A stretch of DNA of 64,000 bases from Dyella nitratireducens. Lineage in GTDB: Bacteria > Pseudomonadota > Gammaproteobacteria > Xanthomonadales > Rhodanobacteraceae. Position 1 is the first letter of the stretch. Every line of letters begins with the position of its first letter. This document shows positions 8,235 to 53,027 of this stretch, piece after piece. The translations under genes and the position numbers were made by a program. The notes under the pieces are model-generated. The model saw nothing but the letters and a program-made list of their open reading frames with translations. It ran no database searches and was not told where the DNA came from. The stretch is from the NCBI RefSeq assembly GCF_014642835.1, contig NZ_BMJA01000001.1, positions 1,989,324 through 2,053,323 on the forward strand, read 5' to 3'.

Positions 8235-10406
8235 CTAATGGCTCTTTGCTATCGCGATTCGGCCCGGTAGTTGTGTATCGAGAAATGCGTACATGTCGGT
8301 GCTGAGAGAGGCAGCAGCGGCTTCGGACCCCGCACCATGCCCTGCATTGTCATCCAGGCGAATCCAGACCGGCTTGCCGCTGCGTGAGGCCGCCCGCAGT
8401 CGCGCAGCGAACTTGCCGGTTTCCCATGGCTCTACCCGACTGTCGTTGAGCCCAACCATGAGCAGCACGGATGGATAGTTCACGCCATCACGGATGTGCT
8501 GATAGGCGTCCATCGCCGCAAGAATGTGCAAGCCCTCGGCGGTACGCGGATCGCCCGTTTCACCGATCTGATTCGCTCCGTTCTGCTGTTCAAGCAGCCT
8601 GACCGGGTTGAGCATCCCTACGTCGATCACGGCGGCACCAAATGACTGCGGCGATTGCGTCAGTGCATTTCCAGCCAGTATTCCACCAAAACTCTGGCCA
8701 TACAGGGCCGTGCGATCAGAGGTCGTATAACCGAGCTTGACGAGTGTCTCGCCACAGGCGATCACGTCGTCGATACTTTTTCCCTTGTTTGCACCTTGCC
8801 CGGCCCGATGCCAGGCATCGCCTTTTTCTCCACCACCGCGAACATGGGCTATGGCGTAGACTCCGCCCTCTTTCGCCCATTCCAGCCGCCGTGGACTGAA
8901 GAACGGTTGCAGGCTGACGCCATATCCGCCGTAGCCTTCGAGAATGGAGCGGTTTTCCCGGTCCAGCACCACATCTCGACGATGAAGAATGGTCAACGGT
9001 ACACGCGTACCATCCTTGCTCACGGCCTCTGTCTCCACGGCAACCACATCGCTGAAATCCAGAGGACTGATTGCTGTAAGTCCCGTATCTTGAAAACGGG
9101 ATTGGCCAGGCTTGTACAGGAAAATAGCCGGCGAACGGACCCATCCTTCCAGCGTCGTTACAAAGCCATCACCCCGAGGGTCTGTGCTGAATTCCCAGGC
9201 ACTACCCGCAAAAGGCGTGGTGCTCGCGGTAAGCACGCCCGTCTTGTAGTCAACGCGGTCAAAACTGTCGATGCCATCCGTCATGTGCTTTGCATACAGG
9301 GCATCGCATGCCGCCTGGATATTGGTCAATACCGAGCCGGACGCTTCGGGGATCACTTCACGGGCCTGCGCCAGCGATATCTCCGGCGCGGAGAGATCCA
9401 TCGCCAATAGCCGGCCGTTCGGGTGATTCTGCATGGACATCACATACAACGTGTTTTTGTGCAGCGCTGCACCTTGCACGTTGTCCGCGTAATCGACGAC
9501 GCAATGCCAATGAGTAGCACCTCTTACAACCCCGGCACGTGGGGCGTAACACAGGCGTTGTTCCTGGCGGGCTCCTCCTATCTCCGCAAGTGCCCAGGAT
9601 GAATCTTCCTGCACATCAATCACGGGAAATTCGTTGCTTGCCAAGCGGAGACCATCGTTGCGGCCACGCTCTGCCAAAACCATGTCTTGTACCGACGGCG
9701 CTCCAAGGCGATGTAGCCGGGCATGCATATTCTGCATGGGGTCGCCCTTTACTTGCTCCGCAGGCGGTGCCAGTTGCGTGTAGGTAAATCCGGTCCCATC
9801 CGGTAACCAGAGCGCCGAAAATTCACCCCACACGGGTTCGACCACATCGGGCAACCAGGTGACATGGTCTACATCGAGGAGCTGGATACGGCTTATTTCG
9901 TTGCCTTCGTGATCGATATTGACGGCGATCCGCTTTCCGTCCGGCGAAGGCATGAACGTGGTGATGCCAGCTGCCCCCTTGCCATCCTTGATATCTGCCG
10001 CATCGACCAGCAACCGTTGTGAACCATCCGGCTCACGCACCATCAATTTTCCTCGACTGTTGCCTTCCCGCCGCAAATAGAAAAGACGCCCAGCCGCAAG
10101 TACGGGATGGTTGTTGAATTGATAGTCGTTGGCGGCGGCCCGCATGCGGTCCCGCCACAGTCCCATGGTTGGCATGGCATCCAGCCGCGAACGCGTGTAT
10201 CCACCTTGTGCCTGCAACCAAGCTTGAAACTCGGCATTGTTCTTGCCCTCCATCCAGCGGTATGGATCGGGCAAGGTCAGCCCAAAGGCATGATCGACCA
10301 CGTTGACCGTACGAGCGCTTGGCGGCGCCTGTGTCTGTGCGAAAACCATCCATGACATGCAAACACAAGTCAGCATGGCGCTCAGGCACACCCGTCGACT
10401 GTTCAT
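8235..10406 (-). CDS. Secreted prolyl-oligopeptidase family (S9A) serine peptidase (723 aa)
   Basis: A prolyl oligopeptidase-type enzyme that cleaves proline-containing peptides, with an N-terminal beta-propeller (to about residue 430) and a C-terminal alpha/beta-hydrolase domain. A signal peptide (cleavage after MVFAQ, about residue 24) points to the periplasm or outside. The catalytic triad can be placed: Ser572 in YGQSFGG, Asp655 in GLNDSRVEPWE and His690 in DNAGHGAG. The nucleophile motif is GQSFGG rather than the common GGSNGG, a mild subfamily variation. The start has GGAGGG 7-8 nt upstream. Monocistronic in this view, flanked by repeats downstream. Confidence 0.92.
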   Translation of the reverse strand: MNSRRVCLSAMLTCVCMSWMVFAQTQAPPSARTVNVVDHAFGLTLPDPYRWMEGKNNAEFQAWLQAQGGYTRSRLDAMPTMGLWRDRMRAAANDYQFNNHPVLAAGRLFYLRREGNSRGKLMVREPDGSQRLLVDAADIKDGKGAAGITTFMPSPDGKRIAVNIDHEGNEISRIQLLDVDHVTWLPDVVEPVWGEFSALWLPDGTGFTYTQLAPPAEQVKGDPMQNMHARLHRLGAPSVQDMVLAERGRNDGLRLASNEFPVIDVQEDSSWALAEIGGARQEQRLCYAPRAGVVRGATHWHCVVDYADNVQGAALHKNTLYVMSMQNHPNGRLLAMDLSAPEISLAQAREVIPEASGSVLTNIQAACDALYAKHMTDGIDSFDRVDYKTGVLTASTTPFAGSAWEFSTDPRGDGFVTTLEGWVRSPAIFLYKPGQSRFQDTGLTAISPLDFSDVVAVETEAVSKDGTRVPLTILHRRDVVLDRENRSILEGYGGYGVSLQPFFSPRRLEWAKEGGVYAIAHVRGGGEKGDAWHRAGQGANKGKSIDDVIACGETLVKLGYTTSDRTALYGQSFGGILAGNALTQSPQSFGAAVIDVGMLNPVRLLEQQNGANQIGETGDPRTAEGLHILAAMDAYQHIRDGVNYPSVLLMVGLNDSRVEPWETGKFAARLRAASRSGKPVWIRLDDNAGHGAGSEAAAASLSTDMYAFLDTQLPGRIAIAKSH

Positions 10407-12030: not shown

Positions 12031-12440
12031 CACAGGGCTCCTTGACCTGACGAATACTGTTCATCAGTGACGTGTTCCATCCATTCGACGGCTTTGCCAT
12101 CCAGGTATTCCTGCACGGCGATGTGCGTCATCGAGGTGGTGGGCGTTGCACCGTGCCAATGGCGATGCCCCGGCGGGCACCAGATCACGTCGCCGGCGCG
12201 GATGACCTCAACGGGTCCACCTTCGCACTGCGTCCAACCACAACCAGCTATAACGATCAGGATCTGGCCGAGTGGATGGGTGTGCCATGCCGAGCGCGCG
12301 CCGGGTTCAAAGGTCACGCTGGCGCAGCCTACCCGCGCAGGTTCGGGGGCATTGAAGAGCGGGTCGATCCGCACGCTGCCGGTGAAGTAGTCGGCCGGAC
12401 CTTTTGCCGAGGCCTGCGTGCCGCCGCGGATGAGATGCAT
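12030..12440 (-). CDS. Cupin domain protein (136 aa)
   Basis: Single-domain cupin of the (R)-mandelonitrile-lyase-like/COG1917 type. Cupin motif 1 is seen as [19 protein letters not shown] (two His and the later Gly), and motif 2 as [10 protein letters not shown]. These His residues normally hold a metal ion, so a small metalloenzyme or sensor is expected; the substrate is unknown. GGAG lies 7 nt before the start. It is coupled to the downstream CMD gene through a TGATG overlap. Confidence 0.87.
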
Positions 12441-12592
12441 GAGCTTGCTCCAAACATGAGAGAACCTCGCCAGTTTGTCTCAAGCACCGGTTGCTGATTA
12501 GATGGGAATGGGTGATTGCACCTATGACCGGTATCGATAAATCGGCTTGTAGGCCATAGGCACATAAGTTGCTTTGCTCTTGGGTTGCGTCG

Positions 12593-12617
12593 GCATGCAA
12601 AGCTAGGGCATGCAAAG
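12593..12617. promoter_or_regulatory. Direct repeat GCATGCAAAG, 15 bp period, upstream of the borosin methyltransferase
   Basis: GCATGCAAAG occurs at 12593-12602 and again at 12608-12617. The second copy contains the in-frame ATG at 12610. A regulatory repeat here favours the downstream start at 12643. Operator role is inferred. Confidence 0.35.
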
Positions 12618-12642
12618 TTTCAGGTCACTGCAAGACATCGCT

Positions 12643-13482
12643 ATGAACACATTGACTCTTCGTGCATCCAGTAGTCGCCGCGGCAGCCTCGCCTGTGTCG
12701 GCATGGGCATGACCCTCGGCTCCCACCTCACACCGCTTGCCCGCAGCCATATCGAGCGTGCCGACGTGGTGTTTGCGGCACTTTCCGATGGGGTGGTGGA
12801 AAAGTGGCTGCAGCGCATGCACCCGGATGTGCGCAGCCTCCAGCCCTACTACAAGGAGGGCAAGTCGCGACTGAAAACTTATAAAGAGTGGGTCGCGCTG
12901 ATGATGGCCGAAGTGCGTGCCAGCAAGCGTGTGTGCGGGGTGTTTTACGGCCACCCGGGCATTTTTGCCTGGTCGCCGCATAAGGCGATCGAGATGGCTC
13001 GCGCCGAAGGTTTCGAAGCGCATATGGAACCGGGCATTTCGGCCGAAGACTGCCTTTATGCGGACTTGGGCATCGATCCGGGCCGATTTGGGTGCCAGCA
13101 CTCCGAGGCCAGCCAGCTGCTTTTTTATGAGCGGCGCATCGACCCTACCGGTTATCTGGTGCTGTGGCAGGTGGGCCTGGTCGGCGATTGGTCGCTGGGG
13201 CGCTTCCAGACGGGGCCGGCGTACCGGCAGGTATTGGTGGAACGATTGGGCGAAGACTATCCGCTCGACCACGAGGTGATCGTCTACCGGGGCGCGACGC
13301 TGCCGATCGAGAAGCCGCGCGTACGGCGGGTTGCCCTGCGCGATCTGCCCCATATCGCGTTGACTGCCGAGGAAACGGTAGTACTGCCGCCAGCAGCGCC
13401 ACTGAAGTTGAACCAGGCGATGCGGGAGCGGCTGAATGCCTTGGACAAGCTGGAAAAGGCTGGCATGGAGACGCAAACCTAG
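12643..13482 (+). CDS. Split-borosin peptide backbone alpha-N-methyltransferase (279 aa)
   Basis: A tetrapyrrole-methylase-fold enzyme of the borosin type, which uses SAM to methylate backbone amides of a RiPP precursor. The borosin signature runs through the domain: ACVGMGMTLGSHLT (residues 17-30), PYYKEGKSRLKTY (68-80), VFYGHPGIF (100-108), EPGISAEDCLYADLGIDP (129-146) and LVLWQVG (172-178). The residues known to be catalytic in fungal OphMA (Y66, R72, Y76, Y98) have counterparts Y70, R76, Y80 and Y102 with identical spacing. Unlike OphMA, no peptide is fused at the C-terminus: the protein ends after a short helical tail. No cobalamin or siroheme gene is nearby, arguing against a tetrapyrrole substrate. 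The start is uncertain: ATG 12610 in the same frame would add 11 residues. Confidence 0.9.
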   Translation: MNTLTLRASSSRRGSLACVGMGMTLGSHLTPLARSHIERADVVFAALSDGVVEKWLQRMHPDVRSLQPYYKEGKSRLKTYKEWVALMMAEVRASKRVCGVFYGHPGIFAWSPHKAIEMARAEGFEAHMEPGISAEDCLYADLGIDPGRFGCQHSEASQLLFYERRIDPTGYLVLWQVGLVGDWSLGRFQTGPAYRQVLVERLGEDYPLDHEVIVYRGATLPIEKPRVRRVALRDLPHIALTAEETVVLPPAAPLKLNQAMRERLNALDKLEKAGMETQT

Positions 13483-13605
13483 AAACATCCAGCCGGGGAA
13501 CAATCTTTGCTTAGGGCACCTATGCCGATGAAATCAGCCCGCAGGTGTACGCAGTGCCATAATCAAGCGTAATAATGCTTGGATTGTGGGGTTTTAAATC
13601 ATGAG

Positions 13606-13627
13606 AAAAGGCACCTGAGTGCCGCTT
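13606..13627. terminator. Hairpin between methyltransferase and precursor genes
   Basis: GGCAC (13610-13614), loop CTGA, GTGCC (13619-13623), flanked by AAAA and CTTTT. It could be a weak terminator or attenuator that lowers or separates expression across the 189 bp gap, or protect the precursor mRNA 5' end. Confidence 0.45.
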
Positions 13628-13671
13628 TTCAGCGCAGAACCAGTACCACATAAAAAGCAGGGGAGGAAAAC

Positions 13672-13956
13672 ATGATTGACACACTCGACTTATTGGAAGC
13701 CATCGGCCGCGATGCATCGTTGCGCCACGCTTCGACGGAGGAGCTCACCAGCGCGCTTGTACAAGCGCAGGCGTCCGAGGCGCTCACTGCCGCGGTAGCG
13801 TCCGGTGATAGCTCACGGTTATTTGAGGAATTCGGACACATGCAGAACGAACCGCCTCAATCCGGCAACCACCCCTTTCACGAAGAAGAGCCGGATGAAG
13901 AGCAGCCGCTCGAAGTCCCGGTTCCCGAAAAAACGCCACCACCATCCGAGAATTAG
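13672..13956 (+). CDS. Split-borosin precursor peptide (94 aa) with Pro/Glu-rich tail
   Basis: Predicted substrate of the methyltransferase encoded 189 bp upstream. Residues 1-57 are helical and resemble the borosin-binding domain of split precursors such as Shewanella SonA: an opening LLEAIGRDASL segment and the closing LTAAVASGDSSRLFEEFG segment line up by eye with the corresponding SonA helices. Residues 58-94 are disordered-looking and very unusual: 10 Pro and 10 acidic residues of 37, with NHPFHEEEPDEEQPLEVPVP in the middle. Proline nitrogens cannot accept a methyl group, so the modifiable stretch is probably short (around H67-E77 or L80-V84). A strong ribosome site (GGGGAGG, 5 nt spacing) suggests high expression. 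The cyclase gene follows 10 bp later. Precursor status is inference from pairing and domain shape. Confidence 0.72.
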   Translation: MIDTLDLLEAIGRDASLRHASTEELTSALVQAQASEALTAAVASGDSSRLFEEFGHMQNEPPQSGNHPFHEEEPDEEQPLEVPVPEKTPPPSEN

Positions 13957-13966
13957 GCATCCTCAC

Positions 13967-15766
13967 ATGTCCGGGCTACCAAGCCACATCCGCTTTTGGT
14001 CTGCCTTAGCAGCCATGGCGTGGTGCTTGTTTGCGCAGCCCGGATACGCTGCCACGCCCATAGCAAGTCCTGCCAGGTTCCTCGACCAAGCTGAAAGCTT
14101 GCGCCTGAAAGATCATTCGCGATTCGTGCAGATGTTGGAGCAAATCCACCAGGAGTCTTCTTCCCTTTCCGAGAGCGAGCAATGGCATCTGCGTTACCTC
14201 GATGCGTGGGAAGCTCAATCCGACGGAAACTACGCCCAGTCTGAACTGCAGTTTCGCCAAGTCATCGATCATTCGGGCGACCCGGAACTGATTGGCAAAG
14301 CGTCGGCACGTCTCTTGAAAATCCTGTCGCTCAATCGGCACTACGACGAAGCCTTTGTTCTGGCCAATCACCTAGCGTCCACCCTGCCTCAGGTCAAGGA
14401 TGCTCAAGTGCGTTTTGACCTGCTGACGGAACTGTCGGAGATGCTGGATTTTGCCGACCAAACCGATCTGGCGCTCCAGTACGCACGTATGGCAGAAGAT
14501 GCCATTCCTCCTGGCGAGACTTCGTGTTTCCCGCTCATGCTACAAGCTGCGGCACTCTACAACGGCAAACGGTTGACATCAGCCAGCCCTGAGCCACGTC
14601 AAGCCATCGATGCCTGCACAACCGCCGGAGACCTTGTCTCCGCCAACGCGATATGGTTGGTGCTGGGTAGTATGTACATCGACGGCAATCAACCACTCAA
14701 AGCCCTGGACCTTCTCGATCAAATCGGCCCCTCTATCCGTACTGCTGGTTATTACCCTCACCTGCTGTCCTCGCAGGTAGAGCGCGCGCAGGCCTATCTC
14801 AAATCAGGCAATGACGACGAAGCAAAAAAGGCTGCCTTGGCAGCCCTGGCCATCAGCCATCCCGATGACACCGGCGACTGGGTGATGACCGATTACCAAG
14901 TGCTCTACCAGATCGAGAAGAAGCAGCGCCATGACGCTGCCGCACTGGCCTATCACGAACGCTTCTCTACTCTGGAGAAGAACCATCTCGACGACGTCCA
15001 TGCCCGGGCACTGGCCTATGACATGGCCGAGCAGCACTTGCTGGTTCAAAAGATGCAGACGGAAGGACTCAGCAAGCAGAACAGTATTCTGAAATTGCAG
15101 CAGGCATTGACCGGCAAAGCCGTCGAGACCAGCCGGCTGTATATCGCGTTGCTGTTATTGATGCTCGTATCGGTCGTCTTTTGGCTGTTTCGGCTCAAGC
15201 GCTCGCAGCTTCGTTTCAAAGAACTATCCAGCCTGGATGGGCTCACCGGCATCTTCAACTATCAGCACTTCATCAGCGAAGCGAGCCGCACCCTGCAGAT
15301 ACTGGAAAAAAGACGCAGCACGGCCTGCGTGATCGCCATCGACCTCGATCATTTCAAGCAGATCAATGACACCTACGGTCATGCACTCGGCGATACCGTG
15401 CTCAAACGCACCGTTGCCATCTGCCGGCATCAGTTGCGCCCCGACGATTTGTTCGGCCGCCTGGGCGGCGAGGAATTCTGCGTGCTGCTGTCAGGTTGCC
15501 ACCGCAACCAGGGCATGGCGATTGCCGACTGCATTCGCAAGGCTTTGGCAGCCACGCTGGTTGATGTAGAGGGGGGAGTCGTGTCGTTTTCCGCCAGCTT
15601 CGGCTTGGCGTGCACCGATACGTCGGGTTATGAGCTGCAGCGCTTATGCAAAGATGCGGATGCAGCGCTTTACAAGGCCAAGCGGACTGGTCGCAATCAG
15701 GTTGTTGCCAGTGGCGAACATATCGATCAAGTCCAAGCCCAGCACGCCGAGAAGTGGGCGAGCTAG
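13967..15766 (+). CDS. Membrane diguanylate cyclase with periplasmic TPR-like sensor, copy 1 (599 aa)
   Basis: Makes c-di-GMP from two GTP. A signal sequence (MAWCLFAQPGYAAT) leads to a periplasmic helical-repeat region (about residues 30-385, TPR-like), one membrane span near 391-410 (LLLLMLVSVVFWLF), then a GGDEF domain. The active motif is GGEEF at 500-504 and an inhibitory I-site RxxD (RPDD) lies at 491-494, so activity and product inhibition are both expected. The DLDHFKQIND metal site is intact. The start at 13967 is 10 bp after the borosin precursor stop, so co-transcription is likely. Its neighbour downstream is a paralogue, roughly 70% identical by eye. Confidence 0.9.
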   Translation: MSGLPSHIRFWSALAAMAWCLFAQPGYAATPIASPARFLDQAESLRLKDHSRFVQMLEQIHQESSSLSESEQWHLRYLDAWEAQSDGNYAQSELQFRQVIDHSGDPELIGKASARLLKILSLNRHYDEAFVLANHLASTLPQVKDAQVRFDLLTELSEMLDFADQTDLALQYARMAEDAIPPGETSCFPLMLQAAALYNGKRLTSASPEPRQAIDACTTAGDLVSANAIWLVLGSMYIDGNQPLKALDLLDQIGPSIRTAGYYPHLLSSQVERAQAYLKSGNDDEAKKAALAALAISHPDDTGDWVMTDYQVLYQIEKKQRHDAAALAYHERFSTLEKNHLDDVHARALAYDMAEQHLLVQKMQTEGLSKQNSILKLQQALTGKAVETSRLYIALLLLMLVSVVFWLFRLKRSQLRFKELSSLDGLTGIFNYQHFISEASRTLQILEKRRSTACVIAIDLDHFKQINDTYGHALGDTVLKRTVAICRHQLRPDDLFGRLGGEEFCVLLSGCHRNQGMAIADCIRKALAATLVDVEGGVVSFSASFGLACTDTSGYELQRLCKDADAALYKAKRTGRNQVVASGEHIDQVQAQHAEKWAS

Positions 15767-15803
15767 TTTTGAGTGGCCAAGCTGTCTTCGCTTGTGGCCC
15801 GCC

Positions 15804-17546
15804 ATGGCGGCCATGGCGTGGTGCCTGCTCGTGCAGCCCGGTTACGCCGCCACCTCGATCACGAATCCCGGCCAGTTCCTCGACCAGGCTGAAAGCCTGC
15901 GCCTTAAAGACCACGCGCAATTCGCGCAGATGCTGGCGCAGATCCACCCTGAAGCACCGCGCCTGTCCGAAGCCGAGCAATGGCATCTGCGTTACCTCGA
16001 CGCATGGGAGGACATGTTCAACGGGAACTACATCAAGTCCGAGACGGAGTTTCACCAGATCATCGATCGCTCCGGCGATCCGGTCCTGATCGCCAAGGCA
16101 TCGGGCTTGTTGCTGAGCAATCTGGCGTTCAATCGTCGCTACGAGGAAGCCTTTGCACTGGCCAATCACCTGGCATCGAGCCTGCCCGAGGTCAAGAATC
16201 CGGAGAGCCGCTATACGCTGCTGACGAATCTCTCGCAGATGCTGGATTTCGGCGAGCAGACCGATCTGGCCGTCCAGTATGCACGCATGGCGGAAGATGC
16301 CGTTCCTCCTGGCGAGAGTTTGTGCCGGCCGTTCTATCTGGAAGCCGCGGCGCTTTATAACGGCAAGCGGCTGACATCGGCCAGCTCTGAATTGCGTCGC
16401 GCCATCGATGTTTGTACCGCTGCAAAGGAACCGGTCTTCGCCAATGGCATGTGGCTCGTCCTGGCCAGCCTGCATATCGACGAAAACCAGCCAGCCAAGG
16501 CGCTGGCCCTGCTCGATCAGGTCGCCGCCTCGGTTCGTACCGCGCATTATTACCCGCATAGGCTGTCCTCCCGCGTGGAGCGCGCACAGGCCTATCTCAA
16601 GTTGGGCAATGACGGGGAGGCGAAAAAAGCCGCTCTGGATGCGCTAGCCATAAGCCAGCCCGACGACACCAGCGAATGGCTGATGGACGACTACCAGGTG
16701 CTCTATCAGATCGAGAAGCAGCAGGGCCACAACGCCGCCGCGCTCAACTATTACGAACACTATTCCAACCAGGAAAAAAGCCATCTCGACGATATCCGCT
16801 CCCGCGCACTGGCCTACGACATGGCCGAGCAGCATTTGCTGATGCAAAAGATGGAGACGGAGCGCCTTAGCAAGCAGAACAGCATCTTGACCTTGCAGCA
16901 GACGTTGACCGCCAAAGCGATCGAGACCGGCCGGCTTTATATCGTTCTGTTGGTATTGGTGCTGGTATCGGTGATCCTGTGGCTGTTCCGGCTCAAGCGT
17001 TCGCAGCTTCGCTTCAAACAGCTTTCCTGCCTGGACGGGTTGACGGGCATCTCCCATTACCAGCACTTCACCAGCGAGGCCGGCCGCGCCCTGCAACTGC
17101 TCGAGAAAAAACACGGCATCGCTTGCCTGATTGCCATCGATCTCGATCACTTCAAGCAGATCAACGATACCCATGGCCATGCCCTGGGCGATGCGGTGCT
17201 GAAGTGCACCGTTGCTGTCTGCCAGCAGCATCTGCGTTCGGAGGATTTGTTCGGCCGGCTCGGCGGCGAGGAATTCTGCGTGCTGCTGCTTGATTGCCAC
17301 CGCGAGCAAGGCATGGCGATTGCCGACCGCATCCGCGCAACCATCGAGGCGACACTGGTTGATGTCGAAGGGGGCGTCATGTCGTTTTCCGCCAGCCTCG
17401 GTGTGGCGTGTACCGATCGATCCGGTTATGAACTGCAGCGCTTGTGCAAGGATGCGGATGCAGCGCTTTATCGAGCGAAACGGCATGGACGCAATCGCGT
17501 CATCGCAGATACCGGGAGCGACGATCTGCAAGACGCTACCGCGTAG
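15804..17546 (+). CDS. Membrane diguanylate cyclase with periplasmic TPR-like sensor, copy 2 (580 aa)
   Basis: Tandem paralogue of the preceding cyclase with the same plan: short hydrophobic leader (CLLVQPGYAAT), periplasmic repeat region, one membrane span (IVLLVLVLVSVILWLF) and GGDEF domain with GGEEF at 487-491 and I-site RSED nine residues before it. Aligning the two genes shows that the position of copy 1's start codon is AGT here. The first in-frame ATG is 15804, and a TTG lies at 15792; neither has a clear ribosome site. Translation may therefore be weak or depend on the upstream gene, whose stop is 37 bp away. The leader is shorter than in copy 1. Confidence 0.85.
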   Translation: MAAMAWCLLVQPGYAATSITNPGQFLDQAESLRLKDHAQFAQMLAQIHPEAPRLSEAEQWHLRYLDAWEDMFNGNYIKSETEFHQIIDRSGDPVLIAKASGLLLSNLAFNRRYEEAFALANHLASSLPEVKNPESRYTLLTNLSQMLDFGEQTDLAVQYARMAEDAVPPGESLCRPFYLEAAALYNGKRLTSASSELRRAIDVCTAAKEPVFANGMWLVLASLHIDENQPAKALALLDQVAASVRTAHYYPHRLSSRVERAQAYLKLGNDGEAKKAALDALAISQPDDTSEWLMDDYQVLYQIEKQQGHNAAALNYYEHYSNQEKSHLDDIRSRALAYDMAEQHLLMQKMETERLSKQNSILTLQQTLTAKAIETGRLYIVLLVLVLVSVILWLFRLKRSQLRFKQLSCLDGLTGISHYQHFTSEAGRALQLLEKKHGIACLIAIDLDHFKQINDTHGHALGDAVLKCTVAVCQQHLRSEDLFGRLGGEEFCVLLLDCHREQGMAIADRIRATIEATLVDVEGGVMSFSASLGVACTDRSGYELQRLCKDADAALYRAKRHGRNRVIADTGSDDLQDATA

Positions 17547-17766
17547 GCAGCGTTGCCGTAGCAATGGTTCCAAACGTCAGGGGACCCGATCGCCTCATAA
17601 ACTTAAGGTATGCTCGCCGACGAGCAGGGTGCATCAACCCAACCTGCAACTGGCATCCGGCTTCTGCATGCCTTCCCCCTCGGCGTGTAAATTGGCATAC
17701 ATTCACGCGCTATATGCAGTGCACGGTGCTCTAAGCTAGTCAGCATCTTTCCGCGGAAGCTCGCCG

Positions 17767-18171
17767 ATGTCCGACGCCGTCGCCTTGATCGAACGCTACT
17801 ACGCCGCCTTCAATCGTGGTCATTGGCAAGCCATGCTCGATTGCCTGGCCGATGACGTGGCGCATGACACCAACCAAGGCTCGCGCGAGTTGGGGCGGGA
17901 GGCGTTCCGTGCCTTTCTTGCGCGCATGGAGCGCAGTTATCGCGAGCAGCTGACGGATATCGTGGTGATGGCCACGGCCGACGGTAGCCGCGCCGCAACG
18001 GAATACGTGGTGCACGGCGAATATCTGGCCGATGATGAAGGCCTGCCGCCGGCACGTGGGCAGCGCTACGTGCTGCCGGGCGGTGCGTTCTTCGACGTGC
18101 GCGATGGCAAGATCACGCGCGTAACCAATTACTACAACCTCAACGACTGGATCGCCCAGGTGTCCGCCTGA
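17767..18171 (+). CDS. SnoaL-like / ketosteroid-isomerase-related protein (134 aa)
   Basis: NTF2-fold protein of the TIGR02096 type (steroid delta-isomerase-related). Family features are the N-terminal IERYYAAFNRGHWQAMLDCL helix pair, the DDVAHDTNQG strand and the closing GKITRVTNYYNLNDWI. The reaction is unknown. GGAAG lies upstream of the ATG. It heads a tight three-gene set with a GNAT acetyltransferase (16 bp later) and a nitrilase (5 bp after that); this trio travels together in several proteobacteria, which suggests a common small-molecule amide or amine pathway. Confidence 0.85.
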   Translation: MSDAVALIERYYAAFNRGHWQAMLDCLADDVAHDTNQGSRELGREAFRAFLARMERSYREQLTDIVVMATADGSRAATEYVVHGEYLADDEGLPPARGQRYVLPGGAFFDVRDGKITRVTNYYNLNDWIAQVSA

Positions 18172-18187
18172 GCACAGGAACGCGACG

Positions 18188-18781
18188 ATGACGCTGCATA
18201 TTCTCAGCTGCAACGGCGAAGCGGTGGCGCCTTATCTGGAGGATCTGGCCCGGCTGCGCACCACGGTGTTCCGCGATTACCCTTATCTGTATGAGGGCAG
18301 CACGGACTATGAGAGCGACTATCTCATGGCGTACGCACGCTCACCGCGCAGCGTGTTCGTACTGGCGCTGGATGATCAGGAGGTCGTGGGCGCGGCAACC
18401 GGCATTCCGTTGATCGACGACCAGACAGCTTTTCAGTTGCCCTTCCGCAAGAAGGGTTACGCGCTGGAACCGATTTTCTATTTCGGCGAATCGGTGTTGC
18501 TGCACACCTATCGCGGCAAAGGCATCGGTCATCGTTTTTTTGACGAGCGCGAAACACACGCACGGCGCAGCGGCTTCAAGCTGGCGGCGTTCTGTGCGGT
18601 GGAGCGTGACGAGCACGATCCACGCCGCCCACCGGAATACCGCTCCAATGACGCGTTCTGGGCCAAGCGCGGTTATCAGCGCCAGCATGATTTGTTTTGC
18701 GAACTGTCATGGCGCGAACTTGGCCAACAGGAAGCCAGCCCCCATCTGCTGCGTTTCTGGTTGCGCTCGCTGGAGTTTTGA
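18188..18781 (+). CDS. GNAT family N-acetyltransferase (197 aa)
   Basis: Transfers an acetyl group from acetyl-CoA to an amine; acceptor unknown. The GNAT core is visible as VFVLALDDQEVVGAATGIPL (strand beta2-beta3 region), FYFGESVLLHTYRGKGIGHR containing the acetyl-CoA loop YRGKGIG (residues about 108-114), and FKLAAFCAVER. AGGAA is 8 nt before the ATG. It lies between the SnoaL-like gene and the nitrilase; in some bacteria GNAT and nitrilase domains of this kind are fused, supporting a joint role. Confidence 0.87.
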   Translation: MTLHILSCNGEAVAPYLEDLARLRTTVFRDYPYLYEGSTDYESDYLMAYARSPRSVFVLALDDQEVVGAATGIPLIDDQTAFQLPFRKKGYALEPIFYFGESVLLHTYRGKGIGHRFFDERETHARRSGFKLAAFCAVERDEHDPRRPPEYRSNDAFWAKRGYQRQHDLFCELSWRELGQQEASPHLLRFWLRSLEF

Positions 18782-50649: not shown

Positions 50650-52860
50650 CTAGCGTGCCTGGCGCAGCTTGATTTCCGGGCTGCCGTGGTTGCCGCCATC
50701 GTCACCGCCACCGTTGCCGAGACCATGCGTAAGGAAACGATAGGTATCCCTGCCCGCTTCCTTGGCCTTGTACAGCGCATCGTCGGCCAGCTTCATCAGC
50801 GCGTCGTCCGACAGTTCGTTCCGGCAGATCGCCGCGCCGACGCTCATGTTGACCGTGACTTGCGCGACGCCTGCGTCGATCGTGATGTGCAGGCGCTCCC
50901 ACAACGATTGCACGAACGCCTTGGCCTGCTTGAGGCTGGTGATGTCGTTGCACAGCACGACGAATTCGTCGCCACCGAGGCGCGCGACGATTTCGCCCTC
51001 CCGCACCAGCTTCTGCAGGCATTGACCTACCTCGGTCAATACCACGTCGCCAACCGCATGCCCGTAGGTATCGTTGATGGCTTTGAAGTTGTCGATGTCC
51101 ACCAGCGCCAGCAAAATGATCGCGTTGCCTTGCTGCGCCTGCATGAGGAAGTTCGGCACGCGTTCACTGAAATAGCGCCGATTCGCCAGGCCGGTAAGCA
51201 TGTCCTGATGCGCCAGGCGCAGCAGTTCACGCTCCGCGTTTTTGATGTGGGTGATCTCTGTGGTGAGTGCATAGACGCCACGCACCTTGCCGCGCGTATC
51301 ACGATCGGGCACGTAGTGGCACTGGAAGTGCAGCGGCCTGCCGCGGTATTCGGCGGCGTATTCGAACATCACGGATTCGCCATCGTAGGCGCGATAGAGG
51401 TAGGGCTTTAGGCGTTCGTACAGGGCATTGCCACGTATTTCGCGCACCGTCTTGCCGATGATCTCCACCGGAATTTCGCCGGAGACCTGTTCGACGTAGC
51501 GGTTGACGTAGGTGTAGCGCTCGTTCATGTCGATACGCGCGATCACCGCGGGAATATTGTCCGTGACGGTGCGCAGTTGTCCCTGGCTCTCCATCAATGC
51601 ATGCTCGATGAGCACCCGCTCGGTGACGTCGCGGCCGGTGTAAATGATGTCCATCGTGCCGTCGTCGTCGGGGCTCGGCACCAGGCGCGCGAACGCTTCG
51701 ATCCACAGGTAATGACCATCCTTGTGCCGCAACCGGTAGGTGGCGTTGGTGGTGCCGCCTTCCATGCGCAGCTTCACGACCTCGGCCGCGATGCGCTCGC
51801 GGTCGTCAGGATGGATCAGGTCGGGCCGCGGCTTCTGGAAATCTTCCACTTCCCAGCCGAGCAGTTCTTTCACGGATGGCGACACATACATGCGGTCGCC
51901 ATTGGGGCGAATGCGCATCACCAGGTCGCCGCTGTGATCGGCCAGCATGCGATAGCGCAGCTCGCTTTCCTGCATCTGCTTGCGCATGCGATCCTGCTCG
52001 GACAGCACCAGCGCTACCGGCAACGCCACGAAACACGTGACGCCGATGAAGACCTGCCCCATGACGATGCGAAACGCCGGCGTGGCCCCCACGACCAGGT
52101 TGAACGGACCGACATCCAGCGTGGTGGCAAGGCTGACGCCCAAGGCGATGATCACCATGCCGAACACCATGCCGGTGAAGCGATGACGGTATACCACCCA
52201 CAAAAGGGGCAGATAGACCAGAAAGACGAGCGGCACGCGCGGCTCCATGCACACGCCTGCCGTCACGGCGACGAGCACGCCTAAATCGCGCACCAGCGCC
52301 CAGGCCTTGCCGGATAGCACGCGGCGCAAATGGTGGGTGAGCACCAGCGAAGCACTGCCGGCGATCACCATGCCGACGAAATGCGCTCGGAACTGGGTAT
52401 TCAGCGCCATCAGCACGCCTACCTGCGTCCACAGGTGCAGGATGCACATCAAGCCCAGCGCACACAGCACGCTGCCGATCAGCGCGCCGATCATGCCCGT
52501 GCGCGCAAGATCGATAAAGCGTGTGTCCTGCGTGATTTGCGGAAAACGGCGGCGGATGGATTCACTGACAATCACCGTTTCCAGCGTGTGGAACGGGCCA
52601 ATCAGCATGGTCTGTGCGATCGAGTCGCCCAGGCTCAGCTTGGCCACAAGGAAACCCAGGAAGGCTGCAACCAGCACTGGCCATGTTTGTGCAAGCGGCT
52701 TCTGCACCAGCCAGCCGATCAGGACGCCATTGGCCAGCCACAGCGCAACCGGGCTGTGATTCGCCCTTGCCAGCGCCAACGCATAGAACGAGAGGCCACC
52801 GGAAAGGGCGAACGCAGCGAACAGCGGCCATAGGCCATGCGGATCGCGCCTGGCGAGCAT
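50650..52860 (-). CDS. MASE1-PAS-PAS-GGDEF diguanylate cyclase (736 aa)
   Basis: Membrane c-di-GMP synthase. Residues about 10-290 form an eight-span MASE1 sensor (GLSFYALALARANHSPVALW is its opening). Two PAS domains follow (ELRYRMLADHSGDLVMRI with PAC part GHYLWIEAFARLV; then LRTVTDNIPAVIARIDMN). The GGDEF domain has the intact RLGGDEFVVL and DIDNFKAINDTYGH. The inhibitory I-site is degenerate (REGE in place of RxxD), so product inhibition may be absent. ATG 52860 is used; the longer frame runs back into a palindromic repeat. Gly/Asp-rich C-terminal tail. Confidence 0.92.
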   Translation of the reverse strand: MLARRDPHGLWPLFAAFALSGGLSFYALALARANHSPVALWLANGVLIGWLVQKPLAQTWPVLVAAFLGFLVAKLSLGDSIAQTMLIGPFHTLETVIVSESIRRRFPQITQDTRFIDLARTGMIGALIGSVLCALGLMCILHLWTQVGVLMALNTQFRAHFVGMVIAGSASLVLTHHLRRVLSGKAWALVRDLGVLVAVTAGVCMEPRVPLVFLVYLPLLWVVYRHRFTGMVFGMVIIALGVSLATTLDVGPFNLVVGATPAFRIVMGQVFIGVTCFVALPVALVLSEQDRMRKQMQESELRYRMLADHSGDLVMRIRPNGDRMYVSPSVKELLGWEVEDFQKPRPDLIHPDDRERIAAEVVKLRMEGGTTNATYRLRHKDGHYLWIEAFARLVPSPDDDGTMDIIYTGRDVTERVLIEHALMESQGQLRTVTDNIPAVIARIDMNERYTYVNRYVEQVSGEIPVEIIGKTVREIRGNALYERLKPYLYRAYDGESVMFEYAAEYRGRPLHFQCHYVPDRDTRGKVRGVYALTTEITHIKNAERELLRLAHQDMLTGLANRRYFSERVPNFLMQAQQGNAIILLALVDIDNFKAINDTYGHAVGDVVLTEVGQCLQKLVREGEIVARLGGDEFVVLCNDITSLKQAKAFVQSLWERLHITIDAGVAQVTVNMSVGAAICRNELSDDALMKLADDALYKAKEAGRDTYRFLTHGLGNGGGDDGGNHGSPEIKLRQAR

Positions 52861-52954
52861 GGGTTTTGGATCCTTAGGTTGCGGGCTGCCCCTCTTGGTT
52901 CTAGGTGAAGCAAGAGTCCTGCCAGGCAGAAGCCGCCACCTCGCCGGATCCATC

Positions 52955-53027
52955 GTAGGTTGGGGTGCAAACCCCAACACCGCCATGCCTGTCACCACGC
53001 CATGTTGGGGTTTGCACCCCAACCTAC
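52955..53027. repeat. GTAGGTTGGGGTGC palindrome, copy 2
   Basis: Arms of at least 24 bp (52955-52978 and 53004-53027). It lies between two minus-strand genes, directly after the CehA-like stop codon. Confidence 0.88.

Follow-up and report, generated by a model that had tools for sequence, protein, structure and literature searches.

Split (type IV) borosins are defined as systems in which the enzyme and the precursor are encoded separately, and borosins are described as natural-product pathways (Miller et al. 2021, PMC8429565). In the SonM/SonA pair of Shewanella oneidensis, the active site of SonM comprises Y58, R67, Y71, and Y93, and SonA is methylated at L63 and I65; neither GGDEF nor diguanylate appears in the main text of that paper (PMC8429565). 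Those fungal borosin cores that were tested are characterized as mainly hydrophobic (PMC11285071), and the title of a further report names OphP as a prolyl oligopeptidase (PMC12235650). Some link between borosins and GGDEF domains is already in print, because the Figure 1 legend of the borosin type scheme of Xu et al. 2024 (PMC11395268) spells out GGDEF; it shares with the locus described here the presence of GGDEF in some borosin architecture and is silent on the type and on whether the domains are fused or adjacent. This was the only paper combining borosin with GGDEF in the literature searched, and none there combined borosin with diguanylate; the main borosin surveys (Imani 2022, Cho 2022, and Lee 2024) lay outside that literature. 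TPR domains joined to diguanylate cyclases are described in Vibrio, namely in RcbB of V. vulnificus and in V. parahaemolyticus, where the TPR is predicted to be periplasmic. However, the partner of RcbB is RcbA, another TPR protein, and the passages describing these cyclases contain no borosin genes. The words TPR and tetratricopeptide are absent from the main text of a 2022 review of c-di-GMP sensing (PMC8846402).

The locus analyzed in this study lies in a 64-kb stretch of Dyella nitratireducens DNA (hereafter the window), and its features are listed in Table 1. It falls within the known split borosins, as a polar-core system whose conserved cassette includes a TPR diguanylate cyclase. It resembles SonM/SonA in its separate enzyme and precursor, in its active-site residues, and in a leader that aligns with SonA over residues 1-61 without gaps in a family profile. 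In contrast to SonA, which has 71 residues, the window precursor has a polar, proline-rich core and a long acidic tail.

Table 1. Features of the borosin locus, its neighbours in the window, and two distant loci (positions are those of the window unless a locus is named)
Feature	Coordinates	Strand	Basis or remark
Prolyl oligopeptidase	8235-10406	-	Peptidase_S9 2.2e-44; distance to the borosin enzyme 2.2 kb
Borosin-type peptide backbone alpha-N-methyltransferase, SonM-like, 279 aa	12643-13482	+	PDB phmmer, Pfam, active-site residues
Shine-Dalgarno-like GGGGAGGA 5' of the precursor	13660-13667	+	Sequence; GGG invariant in 10-sequence alignment
Precursor protein (likely), 94 aa	13672-13956	+	Homologue adjoins the enzyme in 32/32 loci and in 47/49 named loci
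Leader, residues 1-54, five predicted helices, SonA borosin binding domain-like	13672-13833	+	AlphaFold2, Foldseek, profile
Putative core, residues 61-70 (PPQSGNHPFH)	13852-13881	+	Column counts of alignment A3, SonA register
Tail, residues 71-94, acidic and proline-rich	13882-13953	+	Composition; acidic tails in many relatives
Diguanylate cyclase 1, 599 aa: signal-like N-terminus, predicted periplasmic TPR sensor, TM helix, GGEEF domain	13967-15766	+	
Diguanylate cyclase 2, tandem copy of cyclase 1	15792-17546	+	Start TTG 15792 or ATG 15804
Diguanylate cyclase with MASE1 and PAS	50650-53022	-	Matches the GGDEF part alone of the borosin-linked cyclase
TPR sensor, histidine kinase, and receiver domains adjoining a borosin methyltransferase	L161: 5477-8446	-	
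TPR sensor, histidine kinase, and receiver domains adjoining a borosin methyltransferase	L162: 5871-9128	+	

We compared the window enzyme with PDB proteins by using phmmer. SonM was its top solved relative (E 3.1e-75), fungal borosin enzymes matched at 2.9e-49 to 1.8e-45, and the closest corrin methylase gave an E value of 0.0049. The Pfam search of the enzyme returned TP_methylase alone (3e-20), which, together with the lack of a Pfam match for the precursor, is the annotation that the original prediction had expected. The NCBIfam models for corrin and siroheme methylases scored far below their cut-offs, the top one reaching 32.7 bits against a cut-off of 525. The residues proposed as catalytic, Y70, R76, Y80, and Y102, were found at the predicted positions with spacings of 6, 4, and 22, and they were unchanged in 54 of 54 homologues, drawn from cassettes in which enzyme, precursor, and cyclase were paired by distance rules. 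Since the SonM residues are Y58 and R67, the first spacing is 9 in SonM and 6 in the window enzyme; the HMMER alignment of the two proteins accordingly has a three-residue gap between the first Tyr and the Arg, a loop that is three residues shorter in the window enzyme. An ORF check confirmed the predicted coordinates and length of the enzyme, and an in-frame ATG upstream, at 12610, is an alternative start that would yield 290 aa. The closest named relative in the enzyme scan was Dyella flagellata, with an enzyme identity of 88%. Just 5' of the enzyme gene, a direct repeat, GCATGCAAAG, was seen by eye at about 12594 and 12610.

The position and length predicted for the precursor were likewise correct, as was the 189-bp gap that separates it from the enzyme. 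A precursor-like ORF lies beside the enzyme, on the same strand and 3' of it, in all 32 loci L001-L032, the window counted in; the co-occurrence expected of the pair in related genomes was thus found. This recurrence, and that in 47 of 49 named loci, led us to reject the reading of the 94-aa protein as a chance ORF. The precursor of L003 is divergent (BLAST E 0.07), and its match to an iterated profile at 4e-16 is to be read with the possibility that it was itself inside the last rounds of that profile. In the collected loci, the iterated profile gave 110 ORF matches, representing 80 distinct proteins. In the enzyme-precursor gap, an alignment of 10 sequences (mean column identity 55%) revealed no conserved element beyond the ribosome-binding site; a hairpin-like match lies in the gap on the minus strand. 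No sigma-70-type promoter was matched in 12400-18300, and no Rfam family was matched in the 64-kb window.

NCBIfam yielded nothing convincing for the precursor, and a single-sequence search of the PDB gave weak matches alone (cytochrome b5-type and others, best E 0.17). Two profiles were used for comparison with SonA: A1, comprising 77 members and including distant ones such as that of Shewanella corallii, and A3, comprising the 47 of these members that are Rhodanobacteraceae precursors. A1 matched the SonA chains at 2.9e-9 over the ungapped 1-61 alignment, and A3 did not find SonA. The AlphaFold2 model of the precursor (mean pLDDT 67.7 overall) predicted, with moderate confidence, helices at residues 4-13, 15-18, 22-31, 36-44, and 48-54, followed by a remainder without structure. 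The top Foldseek match was the SonA chain 7ltr_D (TMt 0.61, E 2.4), and SonA chains accounted for 7 of the 13 listed fold matches and were the best among them, all 13 being statistically weak. The N-terminal half had been predicted to resemble the borosin-binding domain of split systems; the five helices, the rank of SonA among the fold matches, and the A1 match agree with this, whereas the E value of 2.4 and the failure of A3 to find SonA do not. The modeled leader may resemble the SonA borosin binding domain, albeit with a weak best fold match, and the protein is likely a precursor. No signal peptide was seen in it by eye.

Extending the A1 register by four residues aligns L63 and I65 of SonA with Q63 and G65 of the window precursor. 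The usual core of the relatives reads P-Q-x-T/S-Q-x-P-G-H from residue 62. Among the 47 sequences of A3, Q occupies position 63 in 34, T or S occupies position 65 in 37, H occupies position 70 in 38, and E occupies position 71 in 44, and P occupies position 68 in 41 of 45; the window core differs from the most frequent form at residues 65, 66, and 69. The core is thus conserved and polar in this alignment and is followed by an acidic, proline-rich tail, and residues 57-94 of the window protein contain 10 D/E, 10 P, and 1 K/R. Paralogous cassettes differ in their cores, and the L003 copy carries a hydrophobic VCFVIPG ahead of its acidic tail. In Lysobacter profundi (L085: 6837-7673), three consecutive precursor ORFs with differing cores precede one cyclase. 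Taken together, the sequence matches, the conserved active site, the adjacency of the two separate genes, and the predicted SonA-like helical leader strongly support the split borosin originally proposed, and the joint identification of the enzyme as a borosin alpha-N-methyltransferase and of the 94-aa protein as its partner is, judged from sequence, very probably correct.

The original prediction ended at the precursor and overlooked a conserved third gene, which encodes a TPR diguanylate cyclase and is present here in two tandem copies, the first starting after a 10-bp gap. Cyclase 1 matches Pfam GGDEF at 6.5e-40 and has an intact signature, GGEEF, at residue 500. The Pfam TPR models matched weakly, below cut-off, and the TPR assignment is based on these matches, the helical pattern, and profile matches to TPR structures. 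The AlphaFold2 model (mean pLDDT 91.7) contains helices over residues 35-319 and a long helix at 323-422 that carries the TM segment. Cyclase 2 (Pfam GGDEF 4.9e-38) matches cyclase 1 with 70% identity over the sensor and 77% over the GGDEF portion. We collected 88 cyclases from relatives, defined as matches starting before query residue 131 and ending after 559, with start codons chosen by script; 85 of them passed the cut-off for a hydrophobic N-terminus, and all 88 had a TM-like segment and GG[DE]EF. The cyclase alignment (A2) included 72 of the 88 and relatives of the two window copies. Cysteines C187 and C217 of the sensor are invariant in 54 of 54 sequences, a pattern compatible with a disulfide in a periplasmic domain. 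The TM segment and the intact GGEEF are read from the sequence itself; the folds and the topology, with the TPR domain in the periplasm, are predicted. The RRNPP receptors of Gram-positive bacteria have cytoplasmic TPR domains that bind unmodified signalling peptides, whereas the window TPR domain is predicted to be periplasmic and is linked to a peptide-modifying enzyme.

The three genes form a conserved cassette. Among the 49 named loci of the enzyme scan, 46 had all three genes, 48 had the cyclase, and 47 had the precursor. The cyclase is missing from L079, which has two precursors; the profile detected no precursor in L083, which has a cyclase, or in L089, where a short precursor-like ORF is nevertheless present. 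The median gap between precursor and cyclase was 15 bp for 57 of 61 pairs; the gap medians were calculated from 53 and 57 of the 61 gaps, the others lying beyond set bounds. In one scan, with 12 matching genomes, the two weakest places (L111 and L112) were left out. To look for a conserved fourth gene, we clustered, across the 49 named loci, ORFs of at least 120 aa lying within 5.5 kb and inspected the components found in more than 17 loci. The largest components, in 49 and 48 loci, were the enzyme and the cyclase; those in 44, 41, and 29 loci each had as their longest member an antisense or alternate-frame ORF overlying these two genes, as judged by coordinates, and a fourth gene was rejected. 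No family of exporters or proteases emerged from this clustering in more than half of the 49 loci. GNAT acetyltransferase genes (Acetyltransf_3, 2.5e-23 to 6.3e-20) occur near borosin genes in Kangiella (L094: 5470-5994), Bowmanella (L089: 6865-7410), and Lysobacter (L085: 5378-5965).

The system had been suggested to be rare, which was not borne out: in a family sample, the enzyme occurred in 128 of 197 genomes at E < 1e-30, and the 5.68-Mb assembly that holds the window (on contig 1) has three copies. That assembly yielded 28 GGDEF matches, four of which extend across the sensor, and all four lie inside the three borosin cassettes. Enzyme and sensor occurred together in 123 of the 197 genomes, the enzyme alone in 5, the sensor alone in 1 (a genome 86% complete), and neither in 68; this table scores as negative six genomes with weak enzyme matches (best E 9.5e-6 to 3.5e-4) and two with weak sensor matches (G150 and G159). 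The Fisher p value of 1e-45 for this co-occurrence is overstated because the genomes are related, and the counts of genomes and loci throughout are likewise not independent. In six distant genomes (Shewanella, Kangiella, Undibacterium, Sapientia, Bowmanella, and Lysobacter), the top cyclase match among the 28 to 52 listed for each was, by its coordinates, the cyclase of the borosin locus. A few of the other listed matches also reach into the sensor; examples are those of Kangiella at profile positions 74-585, 14-356, and 17-359.

We further analyzed 15 sensor-cyclase stretches with no listed enzyme nearby. Thirteen had no enzyme match, and the remaining two, L154 and L155, had an enzyme match; the matches at 2076 in L155 and 6982 in L156 were to the precursor, not to the enzyme. 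A precursor match was present at 6 of the 13 places, in one case as a fragment of about 51 codons, and absent from 7. This finding indicates that precursor and cyclase can persist without their own enzyme and that the cyclase can stand alone.

In the 54 cassettes, the sensor and core distances correlated after the enzyme distance was removed (partial r 0.44, permutation p 0.001), and the partial r was 0.29 with the GGDEF distance removed. The core and GGDEF distances also correlated with the enzyme distance removed (partial r 0.38); shared ancestry of whole cassettes therefore explains part of the sensor-core correlation, which may reflect joint inheritance alone.

The locus varies in relatives. 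In Undibacterium and Sapientia, the gene order is precursor, cyclase, enzyme, and in Shewanella corallii (L099) a TPR-GGDEF gene comes after a pair resembling SonM/SonA. The five genomes scored as enzyme-only belong to one genus and have the enzyme fused to the C-terminus of the TPR-GGDEF protein. These fusions (L179-L183, in G159, G130, G150, G098, and G109) comprise six ORFs of 829-893 residues from stop to stop, all with a precursor-profile match nearby, and Pfam found TPR, GGDEF, and TP_methylase together in the one ORF searched. Of eight distant enzyme loci (L161-L168), two, L161 and L162, encode a TPR sensor linked to a histidine kinase (Table 1); their enzymes show 45% and 42% identity. 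The remaining six (L163-L168, 26-42% identical) have no sensor match, which limits the enzyme-sensor link. An MFS transporter gene lies just 3' of the methyltransferase in L164 (4535-5764, MFS_1 5.8e-43) and L166 (5928-6812, 1.6e-22) and is a possible export route there; a precursor-like ORF lies immediately 5' of the L164 enzyme. On the whole, a functional link between the peptide system and the TPR sensor protein is well supported and can be regarded as probable.

A possible signalling role for the modified peptide is suggested by the membrane signalling protein that accompanies the pair in almost every close relative examined. The methyltransferase would dock on the helical leader of the precursor and methylate backbone amides after the leader, around residues 63-66. 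A peptide fragment would then be trimmed and leave the cytoplasm by a general route, and the methylated peptide would be the ligand of the periplasmic TPR domain of the downstream diguanylate cyclase. Binding would alter cyclase activity, in whichever direction, and so set the cellular c-di-GMP concentration. In two distant loci the TPR sensor is found on a histidine kinase, which points to the sensor rather than GGDEF as the shared partner, although one of the two also has a TPR cyclase. We favor this signalling cassette tentatively, the chances of the mechanism as a whole being somewhat short of even; the role of the peptide as TPR ligand, which we infer from linkage, is plausible to a similar degree. 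Several findings count against the signalling cassette: the lack of a majority exporter family and of a visible signal peptide, which bears on whether the peptide reaches a periplasmic sensor; the absence of a precursor match from 7 of the 13 enzyme-less cyclase places; L079 without a cyclase and L083 without a detected precursor; the absence of a sensor match from L163-L168; the cyclase-enzyme fusion, which would equally fit a purely cytoplasmic role; a polar, proline-rich core, compared with the mainly hydrophobic fungal cores tested; the failure of A3 to find SonA and the Foldseek E value of 2.4; and partial sensor matches in cyclases elsewhere, as in Kangiella.

The main rival to the signalling cassette is control within the cytoplasm, in which the cyclase is influenced from its cytoplasmic side, either by the complex of enzyme and precursor or by the precursor once methylated, while the TPR domain senses something else; in a variant, the methyltransferase might report SAM or the growth state. 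The cyclase-enzyme fusion, with six ORFs in five genomes, would position the enzyme on the same side of the membrane as the GGDEF domain, and the missing signal peptide and majority exporter also agree with this explanation. However, in L161 and L162 the TPR sensor is coupled to a histidine kinase, although L161 carries a TPR cyclase in addition, and we consider cytoplasmic control unlikely.

Still less likely is an ordinary borosin natural product, that is, a secreted bioactive peptide merely co-regulated with the biofilm state through the adjoining cyclase. This explanation agrees with the description of borosins as natural-product pathways and with the variation in core among paralogous cassettes, and the prolyl oligopeptidase in the window, a type of peptidase that fungal borosin pathways also employ, could trim the peptide. 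Nevertheless, the peptidase gene is 2.2 kb away on the opposite strand and has a homologue in just 2 of the other 69 loci (L062 and L063), for which reason we set it aside as the processing enzyme; moreover, the sensor-cyclase occurs without the enzyme in only 1 of 197 genomes. A last alternative, a corrin or siroheme methylase next to an unrelated 94-aa protein, is highly improbable, and we reject it: Pfam and NCBIfam label the enzyme merely as a TP_methylase relative, but the E value is 3e-75 for SonM and 0.005 for the closest corrin methylase, the active-site residues are invariant, and the top NCBIfam match falls far short of its cut-off.

For split borosins from Rhodanobacteraceae to Shewanella and Kangiella, the signalling reading can be generalized, more tentatively still than for the window itself: their methylated peptides could be signals for periplasmic TPR receptors with c-di-GMP or phosphorelay output. 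If true, the signalling reading gives split borosins a biological function, and the methylated peptide would be a candidate input for TPR diguanylate cyclases. A conserved partner resembling a receptor would open the function of split borosins to direct testing through c-di-GMP.
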